64,000 bases of DNA, taken from Agarophyton chilense. Taxonomy: Eukaryota; Rhodophyta; Florideophyceae; Gracilariales; Gracilariaceae. The stretch is from NCBI GenBank assembly GCA_030374765.1, contig JARGXX010000116.1, positions 62,001 to 126,000 of the forward strand. Reading direction: 5' to 3'. The position numbers were made by a program, and so were the translations under genes. Positions 27,296-64,000 of the stretch are shown piece by piece (the stretch's first letter is position 1; each line of letters opens with the position of its first letter). A model generated the notes under the pieces. The model made no database searches. It was given only the letters and a program-made list of their open reading frames with translations, and was not told where the DNA came from.

Positions 27296-27297
27296 AG

Positions 27298-27522: not shown

Positions 27523-29553
27523 ATGTCGCCGCCTACCCGTGGTTCTAGGACTGGATCGAACCGTCAAGCGGATTCAGTGCCTCCGGCCCCGCCTAGGTCG
27601 AGGAGCTCAATTCCCGAAGGTCGGAACGATTCCGGTATCGATCCGGACACTCGGAGAGCATTCTCAGTGGTTTCAGGTCCTCGAGAGGTCGTGGCTGTGA
27701 GCCCAGCTCCAGTGGTGGAGACCCCCTCAGCAGCACCCCGAAGTCGGGCCGACCCTGAATTACAGCGCCTGGAGACTCAAATTGATATCGCCAACGCGGC
27801 TCACATCGAGCTCCTTCAGGAGGTTACTACCCTCCGCCTCAAGGTGGAGGACGCCCAGGTGCGGGGAGTCGCCGATGACCTTCGTACCCTGAGGAGGGAT
27901 GTGAACTCCCTTTTGGAAAGCTTTGGTACCCCTGGGGTCTTTATCCAGGAGTACCGGAGCCTCGTGGAGGAACACCGCGTGCAAGCGGAACGCTTCCGAG
28001 CTCGGCTGGACACCCTCGAGGCCATTATTTGTATGGGCGGAGACGCAGAAGCCTCGAAGGATAAACCCGACGTTTCGGAAGACGAAGAACACCGCTCCGC
28101 TAAACGGGACCGCCGCAAGTCCAAGAAGAGGGTTCACCTCCAAGAGGATTTATCGGATTCCGATCCCAATCGCTCGTCATCGAGTTCGTCCTCCGAATCT
28201 TCGGAAAGTGAAGATGAACGCCGGTCATCCCGGGCGACTCGGTCGAAGGCTACTTACACCTCTCAAGGGGCAATCCGTACCCGGAAGAAGGGTAGGAAAC
28301 ACCTTGGATTAAGGGAGCTGAAGCCGACGAATCCTCTCTATCGGAAGCTGCTATCGTACCGCTATTACCGGTTGGATAACCCTTCGGGAGATCGAACATC
28401 CCGCGGAACGGGTAAGGTCAAGGACTACATCAAAAGGCTGAGCATCACCCTACAGAAGAAGGAGTTCACAGGAACAGACCCAATTCTGGTGCTCGATTTC
28501 CTTGCGAGGTTCGTCCAGGAAGCTGACATCCTCGGTATGAGTGAAGCGCAAGCGTATCTTGCATTACCCTATTTCTTAAAGGGGATGGCTGAAGACCAGT
28601 TCAACTCCGTCCGTGGATCATCCCGAGCCTCGGAAGGGGGAGTCACGTGCTGGCCCGAAGCGGTGCAGTACCTCTTGAGGTCATACGCTACTGGAAATGC
28701 GGTTCAGGAAGCAATCCTTGCATTAAGGGATACGCGGCAGAAGCCGATGGAAACCGAAACGGTGTATTCAACTCGCTTGAATAAAGCGTTTCCCCGATGC
28801 GGGAATGTATTCCCCGCCTACGAGAGATGCTCCATGTTTGTGGATGGTTTGGAACCCTCTATAAGGGCATTGGTTGCCCGACATCGGGAAGAGAAGCGCA
28901 AGCTGACCTACTTGGAACTGGTTCAGTACGCCCAAGCTGAGGGGGATACTCTCCGTGCCCGGCAGAACCGAAAGAGTCGGCCGACACGTGCACTCCTCGC
29001 CGATGGAGGTAACTCGTCTTTGTCACTCGCAGGAGGCTCTGCCCCTGTGGGGGTCAATGATAACATTCACTTCATGGGAAGTAACCCCGAATCTATGGGT
29101 ACGTCTGAGTGGCCGTCGACATCCACTCCGACTACGGATGAAGACCCTGCGCTCTATACCCAAGGACGGAGGGTGCCAGCCGCATCGCTACCTTTTGCGA
29201 ATACCGCTGCTCGGTTCTCTCGCCCCGGATGGAGAGATACAGCACCACATCGCGTGGATTCACGTCCACAACCGAACCCGGCAGAGCTGATTTGCTATTT
29301 GTGTTACTTCCATGGTCACAAAGCACCAGACTGCACATTTCCCCTGCGGGAGGGTTCACGAATTATCGCTCAATACGAGGCTCTGACCCCTGAGGAGAAA
29401 GCTCGAGTCCCGAGTAGGTCCTACGAGGAACAAAGGATACTCCGAGCTCACCTTGCTGACAGGGATACAGAACTTGTACCCGCGAAAGGGGAACAACCGG
29501 TCCCCTTCGAGGCAGCTGCACCGAATTCGGTGGGGTACGCTTCGAAAAACTAA
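27523..29553 (+). CDS. gag: E1 Gag polyprotein
   Basis: 676 residues from ATG 27523. An N-terminal Pro/Ser/Arg-rich region is followed by a helical segment (LEVTTLRLKVEDAQ type), then an acidic-basic Ser/Glu/Asp/Arg linker. The conserved capsid-like region begins at GRKHLGLRELKPTNPLYRKL and includes DPILVLDFLARFVQEAD and WPEAVQYLLRSYA. One CCHC zinc knuckle, CYLCYFHGHKAPDC (about residue 587), binds RNA. The protein forms the virus-like particle that packages element RNA. The reading frame ends at TAA 29551 directly after a slippery-looking GAAAAAC. Pol continues in the -1 frame. Confidence 0.92.
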   Translation: MSPPTRGSRTGSNRQADSVPPAPPRSRSSIPEGRNDSGIDPDTRRAFSVVSGPREVVAVSPAPVVETPSAAPRSRADPELQRLETQIDIANAAHIELLQEVTTLRLKVEDAQVRGVADDLRTLRRDVNSLLESFGTPGVFIQEYRSLVEEHRVQAERFRARLDTLEAIICMGGDAEASKDKPDVSEDEEHRSAKRDRRKSKKRVHLQEDLSDSDPNRSSSSSSSESSESEDERRSSRATRSKATYTSQGAIRTRKKGRKHLGLRELKPTNPLYRKLLSYRYYRLDNPSGDRTSRGTGKVKDYIKRLSITLQKKEFTGTDPILVLDFLARFVQEADILGMSEAQAYLALPYFLKGMAEDQFNSVRGSSRASEGGVTCWPEAVQYLLRSYATGNAVQEAILALRDTRQKPMETETVYSTRLNKAFPRCGNVFPAYERCSMFVDGLEPSIRALVARHREEKRKLTYLELVQYAQAEGDTLRARQNRKSRPTRALLADGGNSSLSLAGGSAPVGVNDNIHFMGSNPESMGTSEWPSTSTPTTDEDPALYTQGRRVPAASLPFANTAARFSRPGWRDTAPHRVDSRPQPNPAELICYLCYFHGHKAPDCTFPLREGSRIIAQYEALTPEEKARVPSRSYEEQRILRAHLADRDTELVPAKGEQPVPFEAAAPNSVGYASKN

Positions 29554-29577
29554 ACTTGAGAGTCTCCCCTGCGGGAG
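29544..29577 (+). promoter_or_regulatory. Probable -1 ribosomal frameshift signal of E1
   Basis: The heptamer G AAA AAC (29544-29550, spaced in the gag frame) sits immediately before the gag stop. It is followed after 13 nt by a hairpin with stem CTCCC/GGGAG (29564-29577). Pol is open in the -1 frame across this point and has no early ATG. Confidence 0.6.
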
Positions 29578-32500
29578 GGGCGTCTTCTAAGCCGGAGTTG
29601 AAGACGCCCGAGGCGCTCCAGCTTCGCTCCCCAGCTGTGACTATCCTTTCAAGGAAAACGGCTGACACCGACGTTAACTCGGGATACTTTAGTGTCCTCC
29701 GTCGCCCGTGGATACGGTCCCGTAATCTCCGTATTCCGGATCGAGTTATGGTAATGGCCAAGCGGAATTATAAGGTATTCGCCGACTTCGGCCTGTCCAA
29801 CCAGTTTATGGTTCGTCAAATATCTGTCCTGGATACAGGAGCCGCTCCTAACTTAATTCATGTGGAATTGTTACCCCCGCTGCTCCGGGTCCAAGTTCGT
29901 ACCGGTCCACGTTTGGATATCGCCGATGCGAACAACAACCCGCTACGGACACTGGGTACAATTTCCCTCATGGTGAGGTTAGGCTCCTATTTCGTCCAAC
30001 TGGAGTTTATTGTATGCAAGTCACTTTCAGCACCAGTCATACTGGGTGGTGACTTTTGCGACCGCTTCGTGGAAGCCATCCGTCCTCGGAGTAGAACTGT
30101 TGAACTCGAAGACGGGTCTACGATCCAAATCGTTCGTAAACCCTTACAGGGAGCAGCGCGAACACGCGTTCCTCTCCCTGTCGCGCAAGAATCTGTGAAG
30201 AAGGACACGGTGTCTACACGGGTAAAGGTTGCGAAGTCAGTGGCTATCCCGCCAGAAACCCAGGTTTGGGTCCCAGTTGTTACCAAGCAAATTGGTGTGC
30301 ATGTGGTACAACCGAACCCGTCTCTGTATACGCGGCGTCAACTCGCCCTTGCGAATGGGGTTGTCTCCGTGGAACCGGATAAAACTTTCAAGGTTTTGGT
30401 AGCCAACTTTGGAAAGACAACGCAGCATTTGGTCAAACACCAGATCCTGGGTTCTGTTCTTCCACACCCACATGCTGTCGTACCTACAAAGATCTCTATC
30501 GCAGAGGTCCTTGGTGTGGCGGACCCTAAGGAGGGGGAGGACACTGCCGAAATCGCGGAAGACGGTGACCATACGACTGCAGCTCCACACGCTGAACGCA
30601 TTAAACCTCAGAAGGTTACGGCCCCTATCACAGGAGCAGACCAGACGGATCCTGTTCAGGAATTGGGAAAATGGGATCTCAACCATGTACCCGCATCTCA
30701 TCGGGAGAAGCTGAGGCACATACTTTGTGAATTTACCCCCATGTGGGATGGTTCCCTTGGAACTATTGGGATTACAGAACACCGCATCGACTTATTACCG
30801 AACACTCGGCCTATTGCCCAACACCCTTACAGGGCTGGACCGAAAGCTCTGGAAGAGGAGAAATCTCAGGTGGAGAAGATGCTTAAAGCGGGCGTAAATG
30901 AACCTGCCCAGTCCGCTTGGGCCTCACCAGTGGTGTTAGTTCCGAAACCGGATGGATCGTGGCGTTTCTGCATCGATTACAGACGCCTGAACGAGGTAAC
31001 CATTAAGGATGTGTACCCGATCCCTCGGATGGACGAATACATCGACTCCCTTGGGAGCGCTACTGTTTTCTCTACACTCGACGCCAATTCGGGCTACTGG
31101 CAAGTCCCTATTAGGGAGGAAGATCGAGACAAAATGGCTTTCGTGTGTCATCAAGGACTTTTCCGATTCCGGAGGATGCCTTTTGGGTTGACAAATGCCC
31201 CCGCAACGTTTCAACGGGCGATAGACATTCTGTTGGCTCCCTTCAAGTGGAGGACGTGTCTAGTGTATTTAGACGACATTATCGTCTTCTCCAACAACCT
31301 GGATGACCACCTCGAACACGTCAGGGACGTAATGAAGATACTCTGCGACGCGGGAATCACCTTGAAACTCAAGAAGTGCGAGTTTTTCACCGATTCGGTT
31401 AAGTATCTGGGTCATCTTATCCGTCCGGGACAGCTTTCAATCGATGAAGTACGAGTGAAATCCTTGAAGGAAGCAAAACACCCGAAAACTCAAACGGAGT
31501 TGCGATCCTTCTTAGGTCTGTGTAACGTGTATCGCCGATTCGTCCCGAACTTTGCGGATATTGCCACCCCCCTCAACAGGCTCCTGACGAAGGGACAACC
31601 AGTTGAACTGGAACCTTTTGGAGAGGCGGAAGCGTCTGCCTTCACGGCACTGGTGAATGCCGTAACATCACCGCCAATCTTGGCTCTACCCAATCCTGGG
31701 CTCCCTTACGAAGTGGACACCGATGCTAGTGCAAACCAAGTAGGGTGTGCACTGTTCCAATCCTCTGAGGATGGTGAACGTCACCCTATTGGGTACTGGT
31801 CACGTTCCCTGAATGTCCATGAAAGGAACTACTCGGTCTCCGAGAAAGAATGTTTAGCCGTCGTGTGGGCCTTAGCTACACTTCGCCCCTATCTGATGGG
31901 TACTCGTTTCAAAGTCCATACGGACCACGCATGCTTGCGTTGGCTCCTGGAGATCTCCGAACCCTCGGGCCGCCTTATGCGCTGGCGTCTCCGACTGTCG
32001 GAATTCGACTTTGAGATCCTGTACAAGAAAGGGAAGCTGAACACTCAGGCTGATGCACTATCCCGCTTGGGAACAACAGCGGAAACGGAACCCTACGAGG
32101 ACGATGACATCCCATGCTTTATGGTATCGAACCTCGAGAGAGGAGCTCAACCGCTGACAGATGATGTTTGTGACGATATACTCGTCAACGAGAGTCTGGA
32201 TTCGCCGACCGGCTCTTTTATACCTATCTCTCCAGAGGAGATGATACGCGAGCAACAGCTCGACCCATTCTGTACACGGATTCGGGCTCGCCTCAACGGA
32301 GGATTTCAGTTACCTTTCGAGGACGACGATCAGGGTTACCTAATCAGGACCGTTGGACCTCGCCCGAGGATAGTGGTGCCGCACACCCTACAACAGAGGG
32401 TATTACACCTCACTCACTATGTGAAGGTTGGCGCCCACCCCGGGGGAAGAAAACTGTACCTCACGTTGAGAAGGGACTTTTACTGGCCGGCAATGGCATT

Positions 32501-34088
32501 CGATTGTTACGCCGTCAGACGGGCCTGCGCCAATTGCGCCAAGAATGACGTCCAACTTCGGAAGCACTCTAAGAAGTTGACGCTGTTCCCGGCACGGGCT
32601 CTACTCGAATTCGTGGCCATAGACATCCTAGGGGAGTTTATCAGGACGCCCCGAGGTCATCGGTATCTGCTTGTCATTTCTGACAGATTCTCTAAGATAA
32701 CGAGAACTGTACCGCTGAAGCGGATCACCGCCGCTACCGTCGCGCAAGCATTCGTGACCCATTGGGTGTTCGTATATGGACCGCCGATTCTGTTGTTATC
32801 CGACAACGGAGGGCAATTCGCATCAAAGTTCTTTCAGGATGTATGTCGAATCCTTGATGTAAGGAATTTATTTGTTACTACGTATCACCCTCAGGGGAAT
32901 GGTCAGGTGGAGAGGTTTAACCGCACGATACTCAACGCTTTGAGATCGTATGTTGCGGATCACCCCAAAAATTGGGACTTGTACACAGACGCTATCACGT
33001 ATGCATACAACACCCAGGTACATCGGGTTACATCGTTATCCCCATTCGAACTGGTACTGTCGAGGACACCGCCGCCGGTCGCCATCGAGGCTCAACCGAC
33101 GCTGTCGACGTACCCGTCACCGGGATTGTACCGAGAAGCCTGGAAGGAGTGGCTTACGAAGATGGTACCGATAGCCCGGAAAGCAATGGACAAAGCTCAA
33201 CGCGCCTACAAGAAGGACTTTGACAATCGGGTTCGCAAACCTCTACCTCAGGTGGAGCCCGACGACTTCGTCTTCCTTCGAAAGGAATACTGCAATCCTG
33301 CAAAAGAACGTAAGCACAAGCTTTCGCCAATTGTGGACGGACCCTATCGTGTGGTTTCTGTAGACCCGGACACGGTGGTATTGGATATCGCTAACCGCCA
33401 CGAACGGATCTCCAGGGACCGCATCACACGAGCGCCCAACCCAAATGTGGAAGTGGTGTCGGCACCAACGCCCTCCACAGGGGATGATTCAACGGAAGTT
33501 AACCCGTCAGGCGGAGATTCGAACACCCGCCCCGTTATACTTCCGCACCCGGAACGTGGTTTAACCGACCTACCGGAAACTTCGGATACTCCCGAACCTG
33601 GGCCCGCTCCCTCAAGGGCCCAGTCAACGAACTCTTACAGAGTTACTCCCACACCGGAGGTAATCAAGCCTCCTGGCTCTCCGCCTAAGGAGGGGGAGGA
33701 AAACTTAGTTCCTTCGCAGGACGATGTTTCGGCGTCAGCCAGTCGCCCTAACAGGGAATCTAGTTCTCACAGTGAGACGGCGAGCCCGACCGAGCCGGCG
33801 ACAGAGAAGTCACAACCCCAGCGTATGGGTAGCGACATCACCGCCGACCCAGCCGAGCACGACGTCAGAAAAGATGACGAAAACCCGCCTAAGGAGAGTC
33901 GTGTGGAGAACTCCGCACCCGGAACGCCTACAGAGCCGACGATCACCCGCCGCCGCGGAAGAGACACTGAGGTGTCGCACACTCAAACCCCGCTTTCTCG
34001 GGAACGAGCTGTGTCAGCGGACTCGCACGGGGAAGATCTCGACGACGAGATTGACCAAATTTGGCTCTCCGTTATGGAATGGGAATAG
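29556..34088 (+). CDS. pol: E1 Pol polyprotein (PR-RT-RH-IN)
   Basis: 1510 open codons in the -1 frame relative to gag. The nominal start at 29556 is a TTG; translation most likely enters by frameshift from gag. Domains in order: aspartic protease with DTGAAPN (residue 93); reverse transcriptase with FCIDYRRLN, LDANSGYWQ, RMPFGLTNAPATFQ and the catalytic YLDD near residue 571; RNase H with VDTDAS near 720 and the HTDHACLRW segment; integrase with the HHCC zinc site (LTHYVKVGAHPG...CANCAKN, about 945-995) and the DDE triad in VAIDILGEF, LLSDNGGQF and GQVERFNR; then a GPY/F-type region (GPYRVVSVD). A 240-residue Pro/Ser/Glu-rich tail follows. No stop or frameshift damages any domain, so the enzyme set looks complete. 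Confidence 0.95.
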   Translation: MRVSPAGGASSKPELKTPEALQLRSPAVTILSRKTADTDVNSGYFSVLRRPWIRSRNLRIPDRVMVMAKRNYKVFADFGLSNQFMVRQISVLDTGAAPNLIHVELLPPLLRVQVRTGPRLDIADANNNPLRTLGTISLMVRLGSYFVQLEFIVCKSLSAPVILGGDFCDRFVEAIRPRSRTVELEDGSTIQIVRKPLQGAARTRVPLPVAQESVKKDTVSTRVKVAKSVAIPPETQVWVPVVTKQIGVHVVQPNPSLYTRRQLALANGVVSVEPDKTFKVLVANFGKTTQHLVKHQILGSVLPHPHAVVPTKISIAEVLGVADPKEGEDTAEIAEDGDHTTAAPHAERIKPQKVTAPITGADQTDPVQELGKWDLNHVPASHREKLRHILCEFTPMWDGSLGTIGITEHRIDLLPNTRPIAQHPYRAGPKALEEEKSQVEKMLKAGVNEPAQSAWASPVVLVPKPDGSWRFCIDYRRLNEVTIKDVYPIPRMDEYIDSLGSATVFSTLDANSGYWQVPIREEDRDKMAFVCHQGLFRFRRMPFGLTNAPATFQRAIDILLAPFKWRTCLVYLDDIIVFSNNLDDHLEHVRDVMKILCDAGITLKLKKCEFFTDSVKYLGHLIRPGQLSIDEVRVKSLKEAKHPKTQTELRSFLGLCNVYRRFVPNFADIATPLNRLLTKGQPVELEPFGEAEASAFTALVNAVTSPPILALPNPGLPYEVDTDASANQVGCALFQSSEDGERHPIGYWSRSLNVHERNYSVSEKECLAVVWALATLRPYLMGTRFKVHTDHACLRWLLEISEPSGRLMRWRLRLSEFDFEILYKKGKLNTQADALSRLGTTAETEPYEDDDIPCFMVSNLERGAQPLTDDVCDDILVNESLDSPTGSFIPISPEEMIREQQLDPFCTRIRARLNGGFQLPFEDDDQGYLIRTVGPRPRIVVPHTLQQRVLHLTHYVKVGAHPGGRKLYLTLRRDFYWPAMAFDCYAVRRACANCAKNDVQLRKHSKKLTLFPARALLEFVAIDILGEFIRTPRGHRYLLVISDRFSKITRTVPLKRITAATVAQAFVTHWVFVYGPPILLLSDNGGQFASKFFQDVCRILDVRNLFVTTYHPQGNGQVERFNRTILNALRSYVADHPKNWDLYTDAITYAYNTQVHRVTSLSPFELVLSRTPPPVAIEAQPTLSTYPSPGLYREAWKEWLTKMVPIARKAMDKAQRAYKKDFDNRVRKPLPQVEPDDFVFLRKEYCNPAKERKHKLSPIVDGPYRVVSVDPDTVVLDIANRHERISRDRITRAPNPNVEVVSAPTPSTGDDSTEVNPSGGDSNTRPVILPHPERGLTDLPETSDTPEPGPAPSRAQSTNSYRVTPTPEVIKPPGSPPKEGEENLVPSQDDVSASASRPNRESSSHSETASPTEPATEKSQPQRMGSDITADPAEHDVRKDDENPPKESRVENSAPGTPTEPTITRRRGRDTEVSHTQTPLSRERAVSADSHGEDLDDEIDQIWLSVMEWE

Positions 34089-34602: not shown

Positions 34603-34842
34603 ATGGAAGAGAAGCCCGAACAGGGAAAATTGTACCCGCAGGAATTCGTTATCGATCGCATCGTGCGTCACATCTACACCCCCGAGGGAGAAGTCCGCTA
34701 CCAAGTCCGATGGTACGGATTCTCGCCTGATGAGGACACAGTGGAACCTATTGAGCACCTTCCGAGGTCTAAGGTTTTATCCTATCACCGACGCGCTCGG
34801 GTAACCTTGCCTCCAAGTCTGGATCGTGCCCAAGTCGAGTAA
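34603..34842 (+). CDS. E1 chromodomain reading frame
   Basis: 79 residues from ATG 34603; the frame is open further back to a GTG at 34552. It is a chromodomain: EFVIDRIVRHIYTPEGEVRYQVRWYGF, then TVEPIEHLPRSKVLSYHRR. Chromodomains steer chromovirus integrases to particular chromatin. Two of the three aromatic cage positions for methyl-lysine are altered: Phe for the first Tyr, and Val where most have Trp in TWEP. The central Trp (VRW) is kept. Unlike classical chromoviruses it is not fused to pol: 514 bp and a frame change separate them, and E3 is the same. In E2 the chromodomain is in the pol frame. Splicing, reinitiation or a lost fusion could explain this. Confidence 0.8.
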   Translation: MEEKPEQGKLYPQEFVIDRIVRHIYTPEGEVRYQVRWYGFSPDEDTVEPIEHLPRSKVLSYHRRARVTLPPSLDRAQVE

Positions 34843-35223: not shown

Positions 35224-35901
35224 CTACGGAAAGCCCGAGGAGGGACCCGCCCCACCGCTGGGATTCTGACCCTGATGGTACGCCGAGGCGAAAGCCAACA
35301 TCTGGCTCACATCCGTCATACCCGGGGGAATCGGAATGCCTGCGTTCACGAGGCCTTGTCGCACACTATCCGCTTGCGGAGTGGCAACCGGCGCCTGCAC
35401 AAGGGTGTTCACACCCCACCCGGGGGGAGCAGATGGACCGCCACCGGATGCATTCGCCGCCGCAGCTGAGATCGTTCCCACTGGTTGGAAGGGTGCAGAT
35501 GGCTCCACAGGGAGTACTCCACTAGGAGCTGGCACTTCGTTATCCAACGCTGGATCGTCCAGGTCTACTGGAGGCTCGTACTCGTAATCATCGGTATAAA
35601 TGAACCCCGTCGGATGTCCCACCGGCATCGGTCGAGGCGAGTCAATCAGCGCCCGTGCTTGCGCCGCGCTGATGCGAACCCCTTCGAAGGGATTGTAATA
35701 GACCCAGTTACCGGAGCCCGGATCGTACCGGCCAGGAGACTTGTCTCGCGCGGATCCTTCCCCTGCCGGCTGATTTGCCACTGGAACTCGATCCCATTGG
35801 GTGTTGTCGATCACGTCCAAGATTGGATACAGGTCCTGCACGTTGCTGGCCGAACCCAACGCTGGGACAAGGTCGATCTGACGCATGATGGTCCGTAGCA
35901 T
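35224..35901 (-). CDS. E1 antisense gene (conserved, function unknown)
   Basis: About 225 residues from ATG 35901, on the strand opposite to gag-pol, between the chromodomain and 3' LTR. It is similar to part of the antisense frame in E2: both have a VID/HID..W..VP segment, then KSPGR or LSPGR, VYYNPFEG or VYFDPWEG, ISA..A, PRPMPVGHPTGF or PRHIPEGHPIGF, and DDP..DNE. Codon comparison favours this strand: SPGR is TCT CCT GGC CGG here and TCA CCA GGA AGG in E2. The C-terminal half is Pro/Ala/Gly-rich. No known domain is recognised. Compared with E2, the region matching the first 405 E2 codons is missing. Plant Tat-lineage gypsy elements are known to carry antisense frames at this position, but I do not claim homology. 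Confidence 0.65.
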   Translation of the reverse strand: MLRTIMRQIDLVPALGSASNVQDLYPILDVIDNTQWDRVPVANQPAGEGSARDKSPGRYDPGSGNWVYYNPFEGVRISAAQARALIDSPRPMPVGHPTGFIYTDDYEYEPPVDLDDPALDNEVPAPSGVLPVEPSAPFQPVGTISAAAANASGGGPSAPPGWGVNTLVQAPVATPQADSVRQGLVNAGIPIPPGMTDVSQMLAFASAYHQGQNPSGGAGPSSGFP

Positions 35902-36188
35902 CGGAGAAATCTCCACCCTGCTGGGGAGCTTCGTTGTCCGCCGGCGCGCAGGCCGATGGCCCCGAGAGTGGGTTGATGACGTATGGGTTCATTCCCTTGA
36001 GAGGGCTAGTCGAGACCGCTGTTGCGAGAAGTGGCTTATCGCCGAAAGTCGGAGGAGTAGAAGAAAGTTGTACCGATGTGCCGGTTTTGTGGCGATCCTC
36101 AGAAGTGGTGAAGGACCCCATTGGGAGAGAAGTATGTATAGTGATCGGAAAGCTAGACACCCGCGGCTCGGAATGTTCTTCCTCGTCT

Positions 36189-36202: not shown

Positions 36203-37116
36203 TGTAGAGCAACGCCCAGTCAGGGGATTCTTGAAGATGCAACTCATAGAATGAGGATTGAACCCTCCGAGGGTTATGATTATGATCCCCTCTAAGGTGT
36301 GCTGAGGTGGCACTGTTTTCCGGTTATATTTCGCCTATAAGGGAAAATTCGGATGGCCCATGGTTGGATTGGCCCCGTGATACACGTGGCTTAATTTGGC
36401 ACCGATTTTCGGATATTTGTTAGAACGTTGGACTTTTGGGCCCTGACAGTTGGATCTCCACGTGTATGGCCCTGAGCAGGTGTGAACTACTGTAGAGTTT
36501 AGTTAGTGAACCCTACTTAGGGAGATGAGATCTGACAGTCCGAAGCTCAGAGTAAATGGTAACCAAGGTTGGTCTTCGATACCTTTAGAGGTTCTTCGTC
36601 GCCATCGTTTCGGCCTTACAACCCGGAACGGGCTCTGGTTAGCAACGCCTGCGTAGGGACACGACTCCACTTGGAGAGTGCCCACGTTTGGGTTCCGTGC
36701 AACCACCCCCTTGGGACCGCTCAGACGACCTGCATGCACGATACCCCGTGGGGGTTCTGCTTACTTGTTGCGTGCTTTTTGTGTTTCCTTTCGAGGACAG
36801 ATTTTCGCCCCTGTATTGGGTTTCTTTTGTTGTTTCGCCCCTTTTCTGGTTCTCGGGCCCGGTGCCTGTTAGTGCCCGACCTTCGCCCCATTTTTCCTCT
36901 TCGCCGGATTTTCCCCCATTCTTTGGGATACCCATACCCATTCCCGATCCAACGGCTTCTACCCCTCACCTCCGTCGGTACTGCCGGAATCCGCCGTGGG
37001 AGTTACACCCCACACTACGGGTGGAACGGAGGGCTCTGTCTCTGAGTCTGCCTCCCCCAGGGAGCAAGGCTTCGAACACCTTGAGAGCACTTCCCGTCGC
37101 CGGGTTTTGCTCCACA
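36203..37116 (+). repeat. E1 3' LTR
   Basis: 914 bp, TGTAGAGCAACG...GCTCCACA, matching 26381-27295 with about two dozen differences, including one single-base indel. Confidence 0.93.
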
Positions 37117-37121
37117 ATACT

Positions 37122-48504: not shown

Positions 48505-49299
48505 TGAAGTGCAACCCTCGTGAGGGCCATTTTCCAGGACTTGGTTGTTTTTCCGCCACGGGCGATACTTGTGAGATCTATGAGTAATACCGCTACTAGC
48601 GGGCTGGCGTAGCCAAGTATATACGCATTGTACGCGAAGTGCACCGGCGGCCGTGCGCCATGGCCCCGATTCGGGTGTGACTTACCCACGTGTACCACGG
48701 GTGGCCCAGGACAGGTTGGCACAGCATAGCTGGATATTTCTCTATTTATTTAGCTTTATTACACTAGGTTAGGGAGCTCTCTACAGTATTCTACACTATA
48801 TAGTGCCAGGGCGATCTCGCCCTGACACTCAGTAAACCTCCCCAACCAGGGTTCTTGGCTCTAAGTCTTTTTCCGCTTTCGCTAGTCTTCCACACTCTAC
48901 GGAGGTGAAGCCGCGTTACTAACGGTAGACTTATCCACCCTGCGTCAACAGGAGACTCACCGCTGTTAGCGTGTATATCTTTCATACCACTGCCGTGTTC
49001 TCGCCCGAGTATTAGGTTTGCTACATATTTCTTTTGGCTCTCGTGGCCCATGCCCCCGATCGCCCCCACTGGGTGGTCCCCCCTTTTATCACTTGCCCAC
49101 TCCCGTGGAATACAGCTCATACCTGGTCTGCTCCCTTCTAGCATCCCGCACTCTCCCCGCTTGGCGTGCCGGTGAACCTCGGCCTTACACCCCGACTTAG
49201 TCGTGTTCACTCCGGATAGGCTCCGTCGCCGTGCTACCCTCCTTGGAGGAAGACTCGGACATCTTCGTGTGTTTCCGCCGCCCTTGGCGTTGCACATCA
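48505..49299 (+). repeat. E2 5' LTR
   Basis: 795 bp from TGAAGTGCAACC to GCACATCA. The left edge could be five bases further out (TGTGCTGAAG at 48500), as the solo LTR starts TGTGGTAC. Confidence 0.85.
48796..48829 (+). promoter_or_regulatory. E2 LTR TATA box and adjoining hairpin
   Basis: A CTATATAG TATA-like box is followed immediately by a near-perfect palindrome, AGTGCCAGGGCGA paired with TCGCCCTGACACT (48802-48829). The same arrangement is kept in the 3' LTR (about 58548-58581) and in the solo LTR. Confidence 0.5.
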
Positions 49300-49302
49300 A
49301 AC

Positions 49303-49320
49303 TGGTCTCCTGACTTAGAA
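49303..49320 (+). other. E2 primer-binding site
   Basis: TGGTCTCCTGACTTAGAA, three bases after the LTR. It is one base different from the E1 site and fits the 3' end of tRNA-Tyr except for that base. Confidence 0.6.
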
Positions 49321-49459
49321 GGCTAAGCGGACCTGTTTTGGTTGTTTTTCACATTGCTGTGCTGTCTTCTCTCGTCGAGATCTGCTTTCCAATTTCTTGG
49401 TTTGGACCCACTTGGTGGACGCTTTTGTTGTCCTATTCTTAGTGGTCAACGCTACAACC

Positions 49460-51589
49460 ATGTCACGACTACCGACGGAAGCGCAACCCGCGATCACGCG
49501 GAGCCGTTCCGTCAATGACGTGGCGCCTGCGGACCCTGGAAGGGTTCCCCCGCCGTTACCTCAAGCCGCTCCGAAAGGCAAGAGTAAGGGGTCGAACTCC
49601 TCCAAGAACAACAAGCTACCGCCTAAGGCGTCGAAGAACGGACCCAATTCTGGTGCTGGACCGGCCCCTGCCGTGGATGACCCGGCTCCTGCCGACGAAA
49701 AGGCCCAGAAAAACGAGTTCCAAATCGGCACCAACTCAAGTGTGAGGCAGCAGATCCGGGTAATGCGGGAAGCGCACAATGCCTTCGTGGAAGAGTTCGA
49801 AGCCCTGCGTTCCAGGTGTGATGGCTCTTCTATGAAGGAAGTGGTTGACGACCTCCACGTGTTGCGGGCGGACGTCAACACCCTGTTGGAATGTTTTGGT
49901 GGTCCCGCCGCTTACGTGGAAGGTGTCGACACCCGATTTAATCGTGTTAGCGCCCGTCTCCAGACGTTAGAGCAAACCATCTTGATGGAAGACGTCTCGG
50001 AGAAGCCGGTTGCTGTGTCGCACCAAGCGAAACACGAGAGGAAAAGGGACGATATCCGCCGTCGGCGTGGAAAGCGTGACAGCGATGACTCGGACTCGTC
50101 GAACTCCTCACGGTCGTCGCGTGGCTCTCACCATTCAAATGGGTCGGACTCATCAGATTCGTCTTCTGACGATGGCCATCGCAGGCGTTCATCCCGTTCT
50201 AAACGGTCGTCTGCCACCCAAGGTGTGATCCGCGCCCGCGAGAAGGGAAGGAAACACTCCGGGTTGAAGGAGCTGAAATGCACCAATCCCCTGTACAAGA
50301 AGTTGGTTTCTTACCGATACTATCGGCTAGAGAACTCCTCATTGGATTGCACGCCCCGTGGCACGGGTAGAGTGAGGGATTGCATAAATCGTATGCAACT
50401 GTCCCTCAGGAACCAGAACTTTTCTGGAGAAGACCCCATTTTGGTGTTGGATTTCCTTGCGAGGTTCGTCGCCGAAGCGGATATTCTCGGTATGATCGAA
50501 GGACAGGCGTTTATTGCACTCCCGTACTTTATGAAAGGCCTCGCCAAGGATCAATACAACTCTATAAAAGGTTGGTCTAGAGCCTCCGAAGGAGGGGTAA
50601 CCTGCTGGCCAGAAGCAGTACAATACCTCTTGAGGTCCTACGCCACTAACCACGCGATTCAGTCGGCCATTCTCGCTCTTCGCGATACGCGTCAGAAGTC
50701 TGGAGAAACGGAAACCGAATTCTCGGTGGGCCTGAACAAGGCTTTCCACCGTAGTGGGAATGTACACTCCGCCGGAGAGCGCTGCACCATGTTCATCGAT
50801 GGACTGAACCCCGCTATCCGAACACTCGTGGCCCGTTACCGGGAAGACCGAAGGAAGACCACGTATCTGGAGTTGGTCCAACACGCGCAAGCGGAAGGTG
50901 ACGCTTTAAGAGCTCGTGCCCCCGGACACAGGTCGCGAACCGTCAAGGCGTTGGTGATGGAAACGAAGTCGCCATCCCTATCGCTGATTGCGAGTGAGCG
51001 CCCCCAACAGGAGTACGACAACGTACACTTCGCCCGAAGCGATATCCATTTGGTCCCGACAACCGAACTACCGTCTACGACGGACGACTCATATGACACG
51101 GCCCAGGATGGACCCCTGCTGTACGCAGACTCTCCCCGTGTTCACGGACCTCGCATCCCGTATTCAAACGGTGCGCTCCGACAGAGTCGCCCTGGATGGA
51201 AGGATACCCGCCAAGCGGTGAAGTTCACAGATGCTCGCTCCGGTTTGCAGCCCTCACGCCAGGGACTCATATGCCACATATGCTACGAACACGGTCACAT
51301 TTCACCGGACTGTATCCTCACCATGAGGGAAGTAGCCCGAGTAATCGGTAATTATGAGGCATTGACCCCAGTGGAAAAGCGGATTGTTCCGATGACGTCG
51401 TATCTTCGAGCGAAGATCGATTTTCCACGGAGTATTCCGGATGCGAAACCGCGCAATGCGTTGCTTTACCCTGCCGAGCAGGCTCCCGACCACCGCCCCG
51501 TTCCTTCAAACCCCGCCGCTGGCGCCCCATTGCTAGTGGTTCAGGATTCTGAGGCCCCGCCCCAGGCGGATGGGACTCAGGAAAACTGA
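49460..51589 (+). CDS. gag: E2 Gag polyprotein
   Basis: 709 residues from ATG 49460. It has the same plan as E1 Gag: a Pro/Lys-rich start, helical segment, an Arg/Asp/Ser linker, then the conserved capsid-like region (GRKHSGLKELKCTNPLYKKL, DPILVLDFLARFVAEAD, WPEAVQYLLRSYA) and one CCHC knuckle, CHICYEHGHISPDC. The N-terminal 150 residues differ most from E1. The frame is undamaged. It ends with GGAAAAC then TGA, and pol continues in the -1 frame. Confidence 0.9.
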   Translation: MSRLPTEAQPAITRSRSVNDVAPADPGRVPPPLPQAAPKGKSKGSNSSKNNKLPPKASKNGPNSGAGPAPAVDDPAPADEKAQKNEFQIGTNSSVRQQIRVMREAHNAFVEEFEALRSRCDGSSMKEVVDDLHVLRADVNTLLECFGGPAAYVEGVDTRFNRVSARLQTLEQTILMEDVSEKPVAVSHQAKHERKRDDIRRRRGKRDSDDSDSSNSSRSSRGSHHSNGSDSSDSSSDDGHRRRSSRSKRSSATQGVIRAREKGRKHSGLKELKCTNPLYKKLVSYRYYRLENSSLDCTPRGTGRVRDCINRMQLSLRNQNFSGEDPILVLDFLARFVAEADILGMIEGQAFIALPYFMKGLAKDQYNSIKGWSRASEGGVTCWPEAVQYLLRSYATNHAIQSAILALRDTRQKSGETETEFSVGLNKAFHRSGNVHSAGERCTMFIDGLNPAIRTLVARYREDRRKTTYLELVQHAQAEGDALRARAPGHRSRTVKALVMETKSPSLSLIASERPQQEYDNVHFARSDIHLVPTTELPSTTDDSYDTAQDGPLLYADSPRVHGPRIPYSNGALRQSRPGWKDTRQAVKFTDARSGLQPSRQGLICHICYEHGHISPDCILTMREVARVIGNYEALTPVEKRIVPMTSYLRAKIDFPRSIPDAKPRNALLYPAEQAPDHRPVPSNPAAGAPLLVVQDSEAPPQADGTQEN

Positions 51590-51614
51590 TTTCGGGAGTC
51601 TCCCCTTCGGGAGA
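51580..51614 (+). promoter_or_regulatory. Probable -1 frameshift signal of E2
   Basis: G GAA AAC (51580-51586) lies right before the gag stop. Twelve nt later comes a hairpin with stem TCTCCC/GGGAGA (51599-51614). Position and shape match the E1 signal although the surrounding sequence has diverged. Confidence 0.55.
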
Positions 51615-51627
51615 GGCGTCCCCAACA

Positions 51628-54600
51628 GTGAGGTTGACGACGCCCGAGGCGTCTCCGCCTCGCTCCCCGGTCACAATCCTCACGAGGAAACAGGCCGTCT
51701 CAGACGTGGACTCTGAACACTTTGGTGTTCTACGTCGACCGTGGAAACGTGTTCGTAACCACCGGTTCCCGGATAGAGTCTTAGTAATGGCCAAGCGCAA
51801 TTACAAGGTGTATGCCGACCTTGGCCTTTCTACCCAGTTTATGGTTCGAGTCCTTACTGTTTTGGATACAGGTGCTGGTCCGAATTTCATCGTGGAGTCG
51901 CTGCTGCCCCCGCCCTTGCGGTCTCAGATCCGCCTAGGCGTGGCGCCCGACGTCGCGGACGCGAATAACAACCCGTTGTCAACGGTTGGAACCGTCGCTC
52001 TCGTCGTTCGCTTGGGCTCCTTCGTGGTGAAACTCGACTTTATTGTATGCCGGAAATTGGCTGCCCCCATCATCTTGGGATGTGACTTCTGTGACAGATT
52101 CGTTGACGCCATAAGGCCCCGCTTAAAGCGTGTTGAGATGGAAGACGGCTCGTCGGTCCCGATTGTCTGTCGTCCGCTGCGGCGTGCCTCCAAGAAGCAC
52201 GTACCGCTCCCTGCCGCGCAGGAACCTCCACCCGCTTCTCGGGAGTCTACCAAGCTCCGCGTGGCTGCGTCTGTCCGAATCCCGCCAGAGTCCCAAGTAT
52301 GGGTGCGTGTCACTTCCCGTCAACACGGTTTACGAGTCATTCAGCCTCTCTCATCTCTGTACGATGGATATCAACTCGCCGTGGCGAATGGAGTCGCGCA
52401 GATTGTCCCAGACAAGCCGTTCACCGTGCTCGTTGCCAATCTGGGCTCCACCTCCCAGTCACTGGTGAAAAACCAAGTTATTGGATCGGTAATGCCTCAC
52501 CCCACCGCGATGGTCCCCACTAGGCTGACCGCTGCCGAAGTCCTCGGTCTCGTTCACTCTAAGGAGGGGGAGGAATCTGCCGTCCAATCACCGAATGATT
52601 CGGAATCACAACCTGCCGAAACAGAAAAGAAGCCCGTTCCGACGAGTTACGACCGGGTAGATCCCGTGAAAGAACTCGAGGAACTCGACCGCGGTCATAT
52701 ACCGGAGTCCCACCGTGAAAGTCTGCATGAGATGTTACGGGAGTTTACCACAATGTGGGATGGCTCTCTTGGTGAGATAAATACAACGGAACACCGGATA
52801 GATTTATTGCCGAACACCCGACCGGTGGCTCAACACCCTTACAGGGCAGGCCCCAAGGCTCGAGAAGAGGAACAGTTCCAGGTGGACAACATGCTCCGAG
52901 CTGGAGTGATCGAACCGGCTCAGTCGCCGTGGGCATCTGCAGTGGTACTGGCCCCGAAACCCGATGGGTCCTGGCGCTTTTGCATCGACTACCGTCGCTT
53001 GAATGAAGTTACCGTCAAGGACGTGTATCCGATCCCACGAATGGATGAGTACATCGACTCTCTCTGCACTGCTACCGTGTTTACGGCTTTGGACGCCAAT
53101 TGGGGATATTGGCAGCTTCCCGTTACGGAGGAAGACCAAAATAAGACTGCGTTTGTCTGTCACTCGGGACTCTACCGTTTTAAACGGATGCCCTTTGGTC
53201 TAACCAATGCTCCCGCTACCTTTCAGCGTGCTATCGACATTTTGTTGGCCCGCTTTGAGTGGCGTACTTGCCTCGTCTATTTGGACGATATCATTGTATT
53301 CTCAGATAATCTGGATGACCATCTCACCCATGTCAGGGACATAATGACCACGCTACGGGATGTTGGAATAACCCTCAAACTGAGGAAATGTGAGTTCTTT
53401 ACCGATACTGTGAAGTATTTCGGGCACATTATCCGTCCTGGACGTGTAATGATCGAGGAAGCTCGAATGAGGTCCCTTCGCAAGGAGAAAGAACCCGCTA
53501 CCCAGACGGAACTGCGCTCCTTTCTAGTATTGGTCAACGTCTACCGACGGTTTATCCCTAACTTCGCTGACATCGCGGCCCCCTTGAACGCGCTTCTGCG
53601 GAAAGGTCAACCACCTAAACTGGACCCCTTTACGTCCGCCCAGACGGATGCTTTTAACTCTCTTAGGAAGGCTGTCACATCAGCACCGATTCTATCGTTA
53701 CCGAAACCCGGACTACCGTTTTCCGTGGACACAGACTCTAGCGACTACCAGGTAGGCTGTGCGCTCTTTCAAACTACTCCCGAAGGAGAACACAAACCCA
53801 TTGGGTACTGGTCACGCTCGCTCAATGTCCACGAGCGGAACTACTCCGTGTCGGAGAAGGAGTGCCTCGCAGTTGTGTGGGACCTCTCTACACTCCGCCC
53901 CTACCTCATGGGTGTGCACTTTACCGTTTACACGAATCACTCGTCCCTACGATGGCTCATGACCATCTCGGAGCCGTCAGGTTGCTTAATGCGTTGGAGA
54001 CTGCGCCTCGCGGAAGATGACTTTGAAGTGATCTACAAGAAGGGCACTCAGAACGCGCAAGCGGACGCGCTCTCGCGTTTACCCACGAATGGGGAAGCTC
54101 TAGCCGTCGATGACGAGGATATACCTTGCTTCGTCGTAGACGATGGAACACCGGAGGACCCGGATTGGTCACACGATAAATGGAACGAAAGCCCGGAATC
54201 GGATGATGATATTGACGCATTGCTCGTCTCAGACGATTCAGAGAAACCCTTGCCACCGACGTTGGAAGTAACCGAAATGGGTCAACAATCCCTCTCTGAG
54301 GATGATGGTGCTCGGCACACAACAGTGGCTCAGCCCACTGCCGTGGTTTCCAGACCTTCTGCGTTACCACACCCTACCCGGGGAATCTCTGACTTGCCGA
54401 TCTTATCGGACCAAGGCCAGAATGGCCTCTCTTCTCTCACGCCACGGCGCGGTGTCTACCCCCGCCCGTTGGGCGTTCCAACCACTCCCCATGCCGCTCC
54501 GTCTCAGGAGGGGGAGGAGGCTCATAACTCTCGTCGAGAGACGGAAACCGCTTCGTCGCGTCATGAAAACCATGGTGCACGGACTCCTGGACACACCAGC

Positions 54601-56103
54601 AAGAACAACGGTGATCCGGACGTCCCGTCTACCGACGTTCCATCTCCGCATTTGCGCGCTACAGCCGTTGCTGAACCCTCTATGGGAAGCGCCACCGCAT
54701 CTGCGTCTGATCGCACTCCCCACGGGGACTCTACTCGACAGGACGCACCACGTAGTGGAAACCCTCTCGCCGAAGCGAAACCGAAATCGTCGCAGGATGC
54801 TGTTCGCCCTCGCGATACTGGACCGTCTATGCCGTCGAGCGTTGACCCGCGGCCCGTGGGACATGGTTCGTCGACACCTGCTACGCTGGAAAACTTAAAG
54901 CACGCCCTCGCAGGCCCCTCTAGGCCGAATCGATCGGAAGTGGTCCCTCGTACTGTACGGCAGGACACACCGGCTAAGCCGGGCAAGAACACCGTAGCAG
55001 ACGGGAGACTCACACCCAGCACGCTTGATGCTGGTTCATAACCCGCGCGCAGTGGCGGACGCACTCCGAGTGTCTCGGTTGACCCCGACAGCGTTGTCGA
55101 AGGCGCACCTGTCACTCCGGAGAATGTGCCCGTCGAGGACGGAAGCACCTCGTCGCCGAGTGAAGTTGAACCCTCGGAAGGGATAGTTGAGGACGAACTC
55201 GCTCCCCGCAGGGGTTCCTCGCCGCGCACTTTGCCACCCGTTGGTGAGGAAGGCACGGTTGACCCGGAGTTGCACGTCCGTCGCGGTACTTTGTCGCCCA
55301 AGCGAGCAGACATACCGGCAGCGCCGTTGCACACGCCCTCACGTGAGGAGGCGGAACGCAGCACGGCGCGGAGTACTCCCGGCCATCAGCCGGACATGTC
55401 ACGTGACCAGACGACACCCGGCTCGGGAGATACGCCAATCAACGCCCAAGGCGGCTCACCCGGCAAGGCACGACGCCCCGTGATGAAACCGCCTCCCGCG
55501 TCAAGTCCAGCACCGTCGCGACGGATTTCACCCAGACGACTCGCGGAACGCGACCGCGAAACCCAGCCTTGGGATGAGTCCGCGTTCCCCCGAAGGGTTG
55601 CCTCTGCACGAGAACTCTCGGAAAGCATTCCGACCCAAAAACTGGGAGAATTGCCCCACGGGAAGGCCTCTGGCCGAAGCCGTCGAACTGACGCTCTTCG
55701 TCATGACGCCTTGGCGGAAGCAACCCGCCAAGTGGCCAAGGCAACCCGGAACCCGGATCGTTCTCCTACCCAGGGCATGGAAAGGTAACGCCAACCCATC
55801 GACCCCTCGGGGGAAGGGCACAGTAGCCCACACGCACCTGCGGACGTACACCGGTTTGGTCCGGTGACGCGTACACTGCGAGGGCGGGAAGTCTACGAGA
55901 AGGAGTTCGTGGTCGACCACATAGTGGAGCACTCATACCATCTGGATGGTTATATTCAATACCTCGTCCGTTGGTACGGTTTAGGGCTCGAATGGGATTC
56001 GGATGAGCCGATGGAACATCTCCCACGTTCGAAGGTGGTGTCATATCACCGCAGAACGCGGACGGGAATCCCGGCATCGGTTGTTAAAGCCCAGGTGGGA
56101 TAA
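51628..56103 (+). pseudogene. pol: E2 Pol without integrase, ending in a chromodomain
   Basis: One frame runs from the gag overlap to 56103, interrupted by TAA at 55039-55041 and 55786-55788; the first uninterrupted part is 1137 codons. It has protease (DTGAGPN), reverse transcriptase (FCIDYRRLN, RMPFGLTNAPATFQ, YLDDIIVFS near 53278) and RNase H (VDTDSSDYQVGCALFQ near 53727). After the RNase H end (DALSRL) and the DEDIPCF segment it jumps to the C-terminal tail (LPHPTRGISDLP). HHCC zinc site, DDE core and GPY/F region are all absent, corresponding to about 1.2 kb of E1 (roughly 32255-33480). The frame is kept across the deletion. The tail is long and Pro/Ser/Arg-rich. The chromodomain at 55864-56103 (KEFVVDHIVEHSYHL, LVRWYGL, DEPMEHLPRSKVVSYHRR) is in the pol frame, unlike E1. 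Confidence 0.85.
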
Positions 56104-56244: not shown

Positions 56245-58221
56245 TCACAAGGGAAAACTTCCCATCGGGATCGCGTGCCCCGTCACGGGTTCGGCTCCCC
56301 GCCCCCGGGTTGGGTTACCTCCCTGGAGGCGGGTGATCAAGGCCTCGCGCATCGCGGCAACATCGCCACTCGCTGCGTTGGTCCCCAGCCCCACCTGTCG
56401 CAGGAACTGGGAGATCACGGCCTCCTGACCCGCCGGAGCGGAGCTCGCATCGCCTGGGGCGGACGCCCCACCACTTGGGAGATTGACCAGTGGAACCGGA
56501 GGTGGTCCAGCTACCGCGTACTCCGACCCAGCCCCCGCGGGGTTATCCAAATCCACGTAAGGCGTGGCTGGCGTCCCCGCGTTATAGGGACCTTCCGCTT
56601 CGGATCCCTCGACCTCCGCCTCGGCGTACGCTTCCCCATCGTCGGGTTCGTTGTCCACCATTGGATCGTCGCCGTCGTAGACGTGGTAGTATTCATCCGC
56701 GACCACGAAACCGATCGGATGCCCCTCGGGGATATGGCGCGGTGCAAACCGGAGTTCGTTCGCTTCCTCCGCGGAGATTTCATGCCCTTCCCAAGGGTCA
56801 AAGTATACGAAATCACCTCCCAAGGGAGTACGCCTTCCTGGTGACAGGTCTTGACCCCGGCTACCCACGGTGCGCCCGCTTTGTTCAATCGGAACGGTGG
56901 TCCAGTCCAACTGGTCGATGTGATTGAGAAGACCCGCCACTTCTTCGGCGTTGGTTACTACACCAAGTGGGATGCTCAGGTCCAGGCTGCGAATCGCGGA
57001 CCTCTACAGGAACGGGAGGAACCACAGTCTGTACTGGTCATACACCTCCCAGAGGATGAACACCGCCGCGCGGACTGCCCATTCGGTAATCACCACGGAC
57101 CACAGTCCGGACTCGGGATCCTCGATGAGGTACGAACCGTAATACGTGATGACTGGTGGCAGCTCGATGTAACAGCCCCGGCAGGCCTCGAGATTCGACC
57201 ACCACGGTGGAATGAGGACATAGCGACCCCGTCGGTCGGCCACGCGAAGGCGTTCGATCTCCACGTTCTGATACGGGACCAAATACCCGAATCGGGATCG
57301 TACTCGACGCTCGAAGCGGATCAGGGCGAGGAAGTTGGCCCGATCAAGTCGACGCATGTAGCGGAATTCTGCCCGGATAATCGGTCGCGTCCAGCACATG
57401 GCCTCTTGCCGTGCTATCGGGATGCCCCTCCACGAGAGTGTTTCCAAACCCGCCAGGCGGTCGACGTAACCAATCTCACCTTGAGTGCGGTAAAGCCGAA
57501 TGTCGGTGCCGAGACCATCGGGGATGGGATACTCGAAAGGAGCCCGGCGAAGCCGTTGACGGCCAAGAAGGACGAAGGCCGCATGAGCGGAAGCCGAGGT
57601 TTCACTACCCCGGCGCGCCACAGCGTGGACCGGAACCGCTACGCAGCGTCGCCAATCCAACGAAGTTGTCGCCACGGCCGGAATATCGCCCGGAAGCATC
57701 CCGTTTCCATCGGTGTACATCGCTATGAGCGCTTCTTTTAACACCGCAATCGGGTGGAACCACGGCGCAAGCCGGAGAACGGACGCATGATGCCCAGGAC
57801 GGCGCCCGACAAGCATTTCGTATGGCAGCCACCCTCTCGGGGGGAACATTCCGCACGGAGCAGCAGCCGCGTTCGCGATAGGAATCTGCAGCGCAGCCAA
57901 TGACGCGCTTTGCAGAAGCGGAACAGACCGGAAGCCGGAGAAGTACCCCGCAGGGAGACGGTTGGGTTGATTGTTTTGGTTGCTCATCGGTGAGCGAAGA
58001 GGCCGGATGACCGGAAGAGGAGACCGGCGAAGCGAAAGACGATGCCGAGGAATCGGAGGACTGGCACGCAAGGATGCGGATTCGGTTGAGAGGGAACGTT
58101 GAGAACGGTTGTTGCCAGGAGACTGGAGTTTTGCCGCACTGCGTTTGTTGGCATCGGATGAAGTGGATCCCAGCGAGCGGGTTGCACTTTTATGCATTCG
58201 TCTCGGCGCGTCACCCACCAT
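56245..58221 (-). CDS. E2 antisense gene (conserved part plus 405-codon extension)
   Basis: A minus-strand frame of 658 codons from ATG 58221, only 36 bp inside the 3' LTR boundary, broken by one TAG at 57004-57006. The first 404 residues start with a basic Arg/Ser/Lys segment and continue as a Trp/Arg/Tyr-rich, globular-looking protein (GMFPPRGWLPYEMLVG, YVLIPPWWSNLEACRGCY, YDQYRLWFLPFL) with no recognised domain. After the TAG the frame continues as the segment shared with E1 (LDLSIPLG, LLNHIDQLDWTTVP, LSPGR, VYFDPWEG, GHPIGF, DDPMVDNE) and a Pro/Ala/Gly-rich tail. The conserved part is well supported as antisense-coding. The first part has a rival sense frame at 56851-57741 (296 codons), so its coding strand is less certain. 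The TAG may be decay, or the two parts may be separate proteins. Confidence 0.6.
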
Positions 58222-58243
58222 CGCGGATGTCGTACTCGCGCCT

Positions 58244-58256
58244 CAGGAGGGGGATA
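58244..58256 (+). other. E2 3' polypurine tract
   Basis: CAGGAGGGGGATA directly precedes the 3' LTR. CAGGAGGGGGA also occurs in the pol tail at 54505-54515. Confidence 0.8.
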
Positions 58257-59051
58257 TGAAGTGCAACCCTCGTGAGGGCCGTTTTCCAGGACTTGGTTGT
58301 TTTTCCGCTTCGGGCGATACTTGTGAGATCTATGAGTAATACCGCTACTAGCTGGCTGGCGTAGCCAGGTATATACGCGTTGTACGCGAAGTGCACCGGC
58401 GGCCGTGCGCCGTGGCCCCAATTCGGGTGTGACTTACCCACGTGTACCACGGGTGGCCCAGGACAGGTTGGCACAGCATAGCTGGATATTTCTCTATTTA
58501 TTTAGCTTTATTACACTAGGTTAGGGAGCTCTCTACAGTATTCTACACTATATAGTGCCAGGGCGATCTCGCCCTGACACTCAGTAAACCTCCCCAACCA
58601 GGGTTCTTGGCTCTAAGTCTTTTTCCGTTTTCGCGAGTCTTCCACACTCTACGGAGGTGAAGCCGCGTTACTAACGGTAGACTTATCCACCTTGCGTCAA
58701 CAGAAGACTCACCGCTGTTAGCGTGTATATCTTTCATACCACTGCCGTGTTCTCGCCCCAGTATTGGGTTTGCTACATATTTCTTTTGGCTCTCGTGGCC
58801 CATGCCCCCGATCGCCCCCACTGGGTGGTTCCCCCTTTTATCACTTGCCCACTCCCGTGGAATACAGCTCATACCTGGTCTGCTCCCTTCTAGCATCCCG
58901 CACTCTCCCCGCTTGGCGTGCCGGTGAACCTCGGCCTTACACCCCGACTTAGTCGTGTTCACTCCGGAGAGGCTCCGTCGCCGTGCTACCCTCCTTGGAG
59001 GAAGACTCGGACATCTTCGTGTGTTTCCGCCGCCCTTGGCGTTGCACTACA
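58257..59051 (+). repeat. E2 3' LTR
   Basis: 795 bp matching 48505-49299 with roughly 17 differences. It ends GCACTACA, where the 5' copy has GCACATCA; the solo LTR also has CACTACA. Confidence 0.88.
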
Positions 59052-63998: not shown

Positions 63999-64000
63999 AA

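Follow-up and report, generated by a model that had tools for sequence, protein, structure and literature searches.

Do chromodomain retrotransposons of red algae carry a gene on the strand opposite gag and pol, or are the long minus-strand frames found there without coding meaning? A 64,000-nucleotide stretch of Agarophyton chilense DNA (contig JARGXX010000116.1, positions 62,001 to 126,000), here called the window, holds two divergent gypsy elements, E1 and E2. A preliminary description of the window had reported related minus-strand frames in both, between the chromodomain and the 3' LTR, and had read them as an antisense gene under selection. Both frames lie where that description placed them, and its matching blocks (W..VP, SPGR, VYYNPFEG in one element and VYFDPWEG in the other, ISA, PR..P.GHP.GF and DDP..DNE) align in the order it gave. 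This study found that purifying selection acts on an antisense protein gene at a fixed place in these elements; it is a real, long-conserved gene. We put at roughly three in four the probability that the chromodomain Ty3/gypsy elements of this Gracilariaceae genome carry a third gene, opposite gag-pol, for an antisense accessory protein that acts as proposed below.

The antisense gene in the window

The features of the two elements are collected in Table 1. E1 has the domain order of a Ty3/gypsy chromovirus (RVT_1, RT_RNaseH, Integrase_H2C2 and rve, then Chromo), and is flanked by a 5-bp target duplication, ATACT. Its LTRs are 97.5% identical. The LTR pairs of the two elements (97.5-98.0%), their polypurine tracts and the E1 target duplication are as expected of Ty3/gypsy chromoviruses. 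The E2 chromodomain match falls just below the curated cut-off of PF00385 (25.1), and no integrase domain was matched by Pfam in the window copy of E2 pol (51553-55041), where the RNase H end is joined to the tail that comes after the integrase in E1. This absence was rejected as a rule of the E2 family: only 4 of the 151 matches listed, the window copy and three others, run unbroken over that point, and in most of the relatives listed the match to the pol stretch is split by about 1.2 kb of further sequence, and frames reach 1930 codons. Unlike E1, E2 (48505-59047) shows no evident target-site duplication, and may therefore be a recombinant element.

Table 1. Positions of the E1 and E2 features within the window
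Feature	Position	Strand	Basis or remark
E1 5' LTR	26381..27296	plus	LTR comparison
E1 pol (reverse transcriptase, RNase H, integrase zinc-binding and core domains)	29460..34088	plus	Pfam
E1 chromodomain	34645..34791	plus	PF00385, 34.3 bits, above cut-off
E1 antisense remnant	35224..35988	minus	C-terminal 225 codons from ATG 35901, preceded by an out-of-frame leader
E1 antisense deletion junction (internal loss of about 960 bp)	35904..35910		comparison with complete copies
N-terminal remnant of the E1 antisense gene	35911..36121	minus	frame 35708-36187 starts like the full-length copies
E1 3' LTR	36203..37117	plus	LTR comparison
E2 5' LTR	48505..49295	plus	98.0% identical to the 3' LTR over 791 bp
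E2 gag-like frame	49319..51589	plus	position; weak, sub-threshold match to Retrotrans_gag
E2 pol frame (reverse transcriptase and RNase H)	51553..55041	plus	Pfam
E2 chromodomain	55906..56049	plus	Pfam PF00385, 22.8 bits, E 8.9e-5; tail-to-tail with the antisense gene
E2 antisense gene	56245..58221	minus	659 codons including the final stop at 56245-56247; ATG at 58221
In-frame stop breaking the E2 antisense frame of the window copy	57004..57006	minus	single internal stop in the translation
E2 polypurine tract	58245..58256	plus	sequence
E2 3' LTR	58257..59047	plus	presumably gives rise to the antisense transcript; edge 36 nt upstream of the gene's ATG
Palindromic CTATATAG in the E2 LTR	58548..58555	either	speculatively, a core promoter that may work in both directions; not present in the E1 LTR

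Both antisense frames of the window are damaged copies, E1 by a deletion and E2 by a stop codon. The E2 frame first reported, 56245-57003, is only the C-terminal 252 codons of the gene; because the same frame goes on upstream of the internal stop to the ATG, the wider interval under which the preliminary description filed it is the whole gene. In E1 the frame corresponds to the last third of the gene. Its deletion junction is common to all three other copies with a 254-codon frame that were examined, and a frame of exactly that length occurs in 28 of the 150 E1-type matches listed. Though more than half of the antisense gene is gone from this subfamily, it has multiplied.

Other repeats surround the two elements. 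A further E1-like copy, 94.9-97.7% identical in pieces, lies on the minus strand at 59071-64000, abutting the 3' LTR of E2, and contains a 50-bp tandem repeat around 59934-60133. At 37872-38380 there is an inverted match to the end of the E2 LTR, 99-100% identical in the 125-129 bp compared; it may be a solo LTR or part of one.

The antisense gene across the genome

Copies were sought in the 79.8-Mb assembly, which consists of 135 contigs. The searches listed 151 matches to the C-terminal part of the E2 gene, 150 to the E1 part and 122 to the N-terminal part of the E2 gene; since the best 122-150 of 1268-1732 first-pass candidates were scored, these copy counts are lower bounds. Antisense frames of at least 600 codons were found in 59 of the 150 E1-type matches listed and in 40 of 76 E2-type matches, these being the first 76 of the 151 (window included), after which the matches are partial or divergent. 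The lengths in this tally are those given by the search program, which for E2 exceed our own count by up to 16 codons. Twenty E1 and 20 E2 copies, chosen for long frames, were then fetched together with seven copies of more divergent clades. All 40 chosen copies were confirmed as open (E1, 640-689 codons; E2, 651-681 codons), and six of the seven divergent copies were open for 624-673 codons, the seventh (L055) being broken. The same assembly includes a plastid-like contig (C39) with 14 of its 15 phycobilisome-domain matches; two phycobilisome-domain segments are present there twice, with the same scores and about 186 kb apart, perhaps as the end-overlap of a circular plastid. The allophycocyanin beta encoded on C39 matches PDB 5tjf, an entry from Gracilaria chilensis, without a difference over 151 residues. 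A fungal host was considered and rejected, since the phycobiliprotein genes and the names of the database relatives mark the host as a red alga.

The copies fall into five element clades (E1, E2, C, D and E), between which the antisense proteins are 36-57% identical. In an alignment of nine copies from the five clades, 103 of 516 ungapped columns were invariant, and clades were 36-56% identical to one another. The clade alignments do not include the broken copy L055, nor does the nine-sequence codon tree include L050.

The place of the gene is fixed. The full-length frame extends from near the 3' LTR to just before the chromodomain. Of 46 loci, 40 of them chosen for long frames, 45 have a chromodomain on the other strand, 135-421 bp beyond the stop of the antisense gene; at the 46th (L049), just 32 nt past the stop were available. 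The start of an E1 or E2 LTR was found by the gene start at 40 of the 46 loci, the other six belonging to clades whose own LTRs were not used as queries. At 37 of these 40 loci the LTR start is upstream of the frame's first ATG, at a distance of 35-81 nt. At L013 and L020, where the usual ATG is lost, the distance is 210 nt, and at L028 the LTR itself contains the first ATG. All five clades have a pyrimidine tract, complementary to a polypurine tract, upstream of the antisense start, at a distance of 23-79 nt; in the clades of the six loci without an LTR match it is 23-45 nt away and is weakest in clade D.

In all five clades the antisense gene lies opposite reverse transcriptase; for C, D and E this was observed in a single copy per clade. 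Near the clade C copy L049, a reverse-transcriptase fragment (in L056) lies on the gene's own strand about 4.5 kb away; it was provisionally taken for a different neighbouring element and excluded from the analysis. In the reverse-transcriptase tree, L066 stands in for L058, which held 48 codons of the domain, and yields 178 usable columns. The trees of the gene and of the reverse transcriptase agree on the grouping of D with E (bootstrap 99 and 100), and place E2 and C differently with weak support (75 and 51).

Selection on the antisense protein

The preliminary description had based its claim of selection on shared residues, whose codons differ mostly at the third antisense position. This argument is partly circular because codon differences at identical residues must be synonymous. 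When all aligned codons of the window pair are counted, 112, 107 and 150 of 221 differ at antisense positions 1, 2 and 3. The excess of third-position change across copies, which had been set beforehand as a test, was also found; tree lengths by antisense codon position 1, 2 and 3 over the five clades were 1.77, 1.27 and 4.69, so that third positions evolved fastest and second positions slowest. Under a codon model (516 codons, nine copies, five clades), dN/dS between clades was 0.199, and fixing the ratio at 1 cost 317 log-likelihood units (lnL -9719, against -9402 with the ratio free). Together with the fixed place by the 3' LTR and the homologues in other species described below, these values bear out selection on the antisense protein.

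Within families the signal is modest; between clades it is very strong. The dN/dS of the gene frame within families is only moderately below 1 (E1, 0.50; E2, 0.70), and is the lowest of the six frames. The runner-up is a sense frame (0.535 in E1 and 0.746 in E2) with about 20 stops per copy, and it comes near the gene frame presumably because their third positions coincide. Synonymous changes made up 52 of 122 shared variants and 229 of 705 singletons (pooled p 0.038; neutral expectation 0.29), with p 0.26 for E1 and p 0.06 for E2 taken singly; nonsense changes are under-counted in these sets because the copies were picked for open frames. The pattern is that of a gene under selection while the element moves and freed after insertion.

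Could such a frame be a chance product, or an artefact of strand symmetry that mirrors the codon bias of a sense gene? Mechanical antisense frames do exist. One in the window is probably 54564-55385 on the minus strand, a 274-codon frame opposite the tail of E2 pol that is also poor in lysine (4 lysines and 23 arginines). The region of the antisense gene has no overlying sense gene to mirror, as its sense frames hold 6.5-21 stops per copy, and the protein is conserved into other species; we regard this explanation as having practically no chance of being right. Coding on the sense strand was rejected on the stops in all three sense frames, and a chance open frame was rejected on conservation.

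A conserved antisense RNA would be another way to explain the region. Such an RNA would pair with the genomic RNA, tuning copy number or feeding small-RNA silencing, and passages of a review describe antisense promoters and non-coding antisense RNAs in other retrotransposons (PMC7264820); transcription could also serve both roles. RNA pairing as the conserved function is nevertheless very unlikely, because selection tracks codons, as the tree lengths and the between-clade dN/dS of 0.20 show, and the sense frames are full of stops.

The antisense protein has about 600-650 residues. Its N-terminal tail is variable, the core that follows (about 350 residues) is conserved, and after an acidic linker comes a short C-terminal segment that is conserved as well. 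A search of 5.8 billion database proteins revealed 12 relatives (P0001-P0012); remote kin may be missed because scoring took in, for each query, the top 8000 candidates by shared words. Seven of the 12 are named, and all seven belong to Gracilariaceae: three from Gracilariopsis chorda, one from Gracilaria domingensis and three from A. chilense, the last being 87-96% identical to an E1 copy over 36-42% of that copy. Public gene sets of red algae thus already hold the protein, as unnamed or hypothetical proteins; no fungal protein was among the database matches. With Pfam at E values up to 1, no family was matched in any of eight antisense proteins or in the three antisense pieces of the window, and TRP28 (PF04195) was not matched in the antisense proteins. 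A PDB profile search gave a single match, to a type III effector (E 0.13), which was taken as chance. Among viral contigs, 32 stretches fitted a pattern and none held up.

The gene sits where retroviruses have env, and it could be supposed to encode an env-like protein, antisense by chance, that lets particles leave the cell. Six of the proteins were examined for hydropathy, and none has a strongly hydrophobic segment: the highest 19-residue means were 0.93-1.57, below what a transmembrane segment calls for. An env-like protein was rejected on this ground and is highly improbable.

Lysine avoidance and the proposed role

The antisense protein is very poor in lysine. In 17 tabulated sequences lysine made up 0.2-1.8% and arginine 7.6-13.1% of residues, against 4.2-4.8% and 8.0-9.5% in E1 pol, E2 pol and E2 gag. 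Over the five clades the antisense protein has 13 lysines and 294 arginines, and the reverse transcriptase 89 and 162 (p 2e-22, a value that treats related sequences as independent). Aligned arginine-lysine pairs numbered 5 against 346 arginine-arginine pairs in the antisense protein; the reverse transcriptase has 34 against 215. Among the 22 window frames of at least 250 codons, the three antisense pieces are the lowest in lysine/(lysine + arginine), with 0.00, 0.07 and 0.12; the others range from 0.15 to 0.65. The longest lysine-free runs are 154-186 residues in the 20 E1 copies, 253-614 in the 20 E2 copies and 122 in the remote relative P0007, and P0001 has one lysine and 610 consecutive residues free of it. 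The protein thus has what defines a lysine desert, a long lysine-free region conserved in evolution.

From the composition by codon position, 10-12 lysines per gene are expected and 2-4 were observed. A general avoidance of purine codons was considered as the cause. Asparagine and glutamate lie above expectation in all five genes, which argues against it; AGA and AGG arginine codons lie below expectation in four of the five clades, which partly favors it. AAA and AAG are fewest in the gene frame, out of six, in four of the five clades, the exception being E1, with 4 in the gene frame and 4 and 3 in two other frames. A share of the effect may therefore lie at the codon level, since AGA/AGG are low in four clades and other E1 frames are as poor in AAA/AAG. 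Avoidance at the level of the protein is the likeliest reading, with some contribution of codon choice possible. Within families, lysine showed no depletion in shared replacements (3 of 78) relative to singletons (22 of 510); selection against lysine is visible between clades only, and the avoidance is thus a property of long-term lineages.

The antisense product is most likely a trans-acting accessory protein made from an antisense transcript of the 3' LTR. The mRNA would start in the 3' LTR, because the ATG mostly lies 23-81 nt from the LTR edge or the polypurine tract and the element leaves hardly any other space upstream. A promoter-like TATA is present in the E2 LTRs and absent from the E1 LTRs. 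After the stop of the gene, AATAAA or ATTAAA was found in 17 of 20 E2 copies and in both E copies; within 400 nt of the stop it was found in none of 24 copies of E1 (20), C (3) and D (1), with only 32 nt available for L049. The protein would act in trans, which is likely because the subfamily that lacks most of the gene has still spread. Its help to the element could lie, for instance, in countering host silencing or in steps that take place in the nucleus.

The preliminary description had suggested a regulatory or structural accessory role, which the lysine avoidance narrows somewhat. From the very low lysine content it may be suggested that the protein works beside the protein-disposal system or hides from it; the avoidance would then reflect work next to, or escape from, the ubiquitin-proteasome system, and it provides a concrete, testable hypothesis of mechanism. 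This contact with the ubiquitin system is proposed from composition, by likeness to VHL and SOCS1, which in the passages cited also have long lysine-free regions with arginine replacing lysine (PMC10665810). These are host ligase receptors; the antisense protein differs in being encoded by a retrotransposon and in lacking a recognised domain. In a tentative idea that we hold to be rather improbable, a lysine-desert protein made from the antisense strand acts within the ubiquitin system of the host, where it would be a substrate receptor for the removal of a silencing factor or a trans-activator proof against degradation, and decaying copies share it in trans. Somewhat more doubtful still is the narrower explanation, in which a ubiquitin ligase of the host uses the protein as its substrate receptor to remove a host factor of silencing or restriction, and the lysine desert keeps the protein itself from being destroyed. 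The lysine poverty of cullin-RING receptors such as VHL and SOCS1 is discussed in this sense in part of the same source (PMC10665810), and the lysine-free runs of over 600 residues in P0001 and an E2 copy (610 and 614) would suit it; a known receptor domain was not found with Pfam, and the runs are shorter in E1 and in P0007.

An arrangement like that of the accessory gene proposed here is known from retroviruses, where HBZ of HTLV-1 and ASP of HIV-1 are antisense genes. In HTLV, the antisense promoter lies in the 3' LTR, according to the review cited above (PMC7264820). The likeness, a 3' LTR antisense message for an accessory protein, is one of arrangement only, as retroviruses are remote in host and in element lineage.

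Closer in kind are the Retand/Tat elements of plants. The preliminary description had pointed to antisense frames at a like place in Tat-lineage elements, and passages of two articles agree with it (PMC7264820, PMC11963269). As these passages have it, antisense frames of Retand/Tat elements are kept in most recently active Retand clusters, across species, and their function is unknown; in Grande (gene23), RIRE2 and Retand, the frame is antisense to gag-pol and lies between pol and the 3' LTR, as in the red-algal elements. Retand elements are described there as non-chromoviruses of flowering plants, with TRP28 encoded by 97% of clusters (PMC11963269). The red-algal elements differ in their host and in their chromodomain, by which they fall outside the non-chromoviruses, and their antisense proteins gave no TRP28 match.

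The earlier statement that no antisense gene had been described for chromodomain elements of this kind is not supported as worded. The fungal element Boty of Botrytis cinerea carries an antisense gene (PMC7264820), called brtn and assigned to a Gypsy subfamily in the passage cited (PMC8365987), where chromodomain status is not given. Like the red-algal gene, brtn is an antisense gene in a Gypsy element outside plants; it differs in its fungal host, and the comparison is one of descriptions, not sequences. According to a 2020 review, it is not known what antisense genes do in LTR elements (PMC7264820). In open-licence PubMed Central, no article on antisense in Gracilaria retrotransposons was found, and titles and abstract openings named no such gene in red algae or chromoviruses. 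Thus, the kind of gene is known, and the protein family, the red-algal chromodomain elements that host it and its lysine desert appear to be unreported in that literature.

In sum, hundreds of listed matches in an 80-Mb genome, in five clades and with relatives in several species, provide strong statistical evidence of selection on the antisense protein, and red algae join plants and fungi as hosts of retrotransposon antisense genes. If the proposed work in the ubiquitin system is true, a non-viral retrotransposon would have a counter-defence gene on its wrong strand, carried over the split between Gracilaria and Gracilariopsis.
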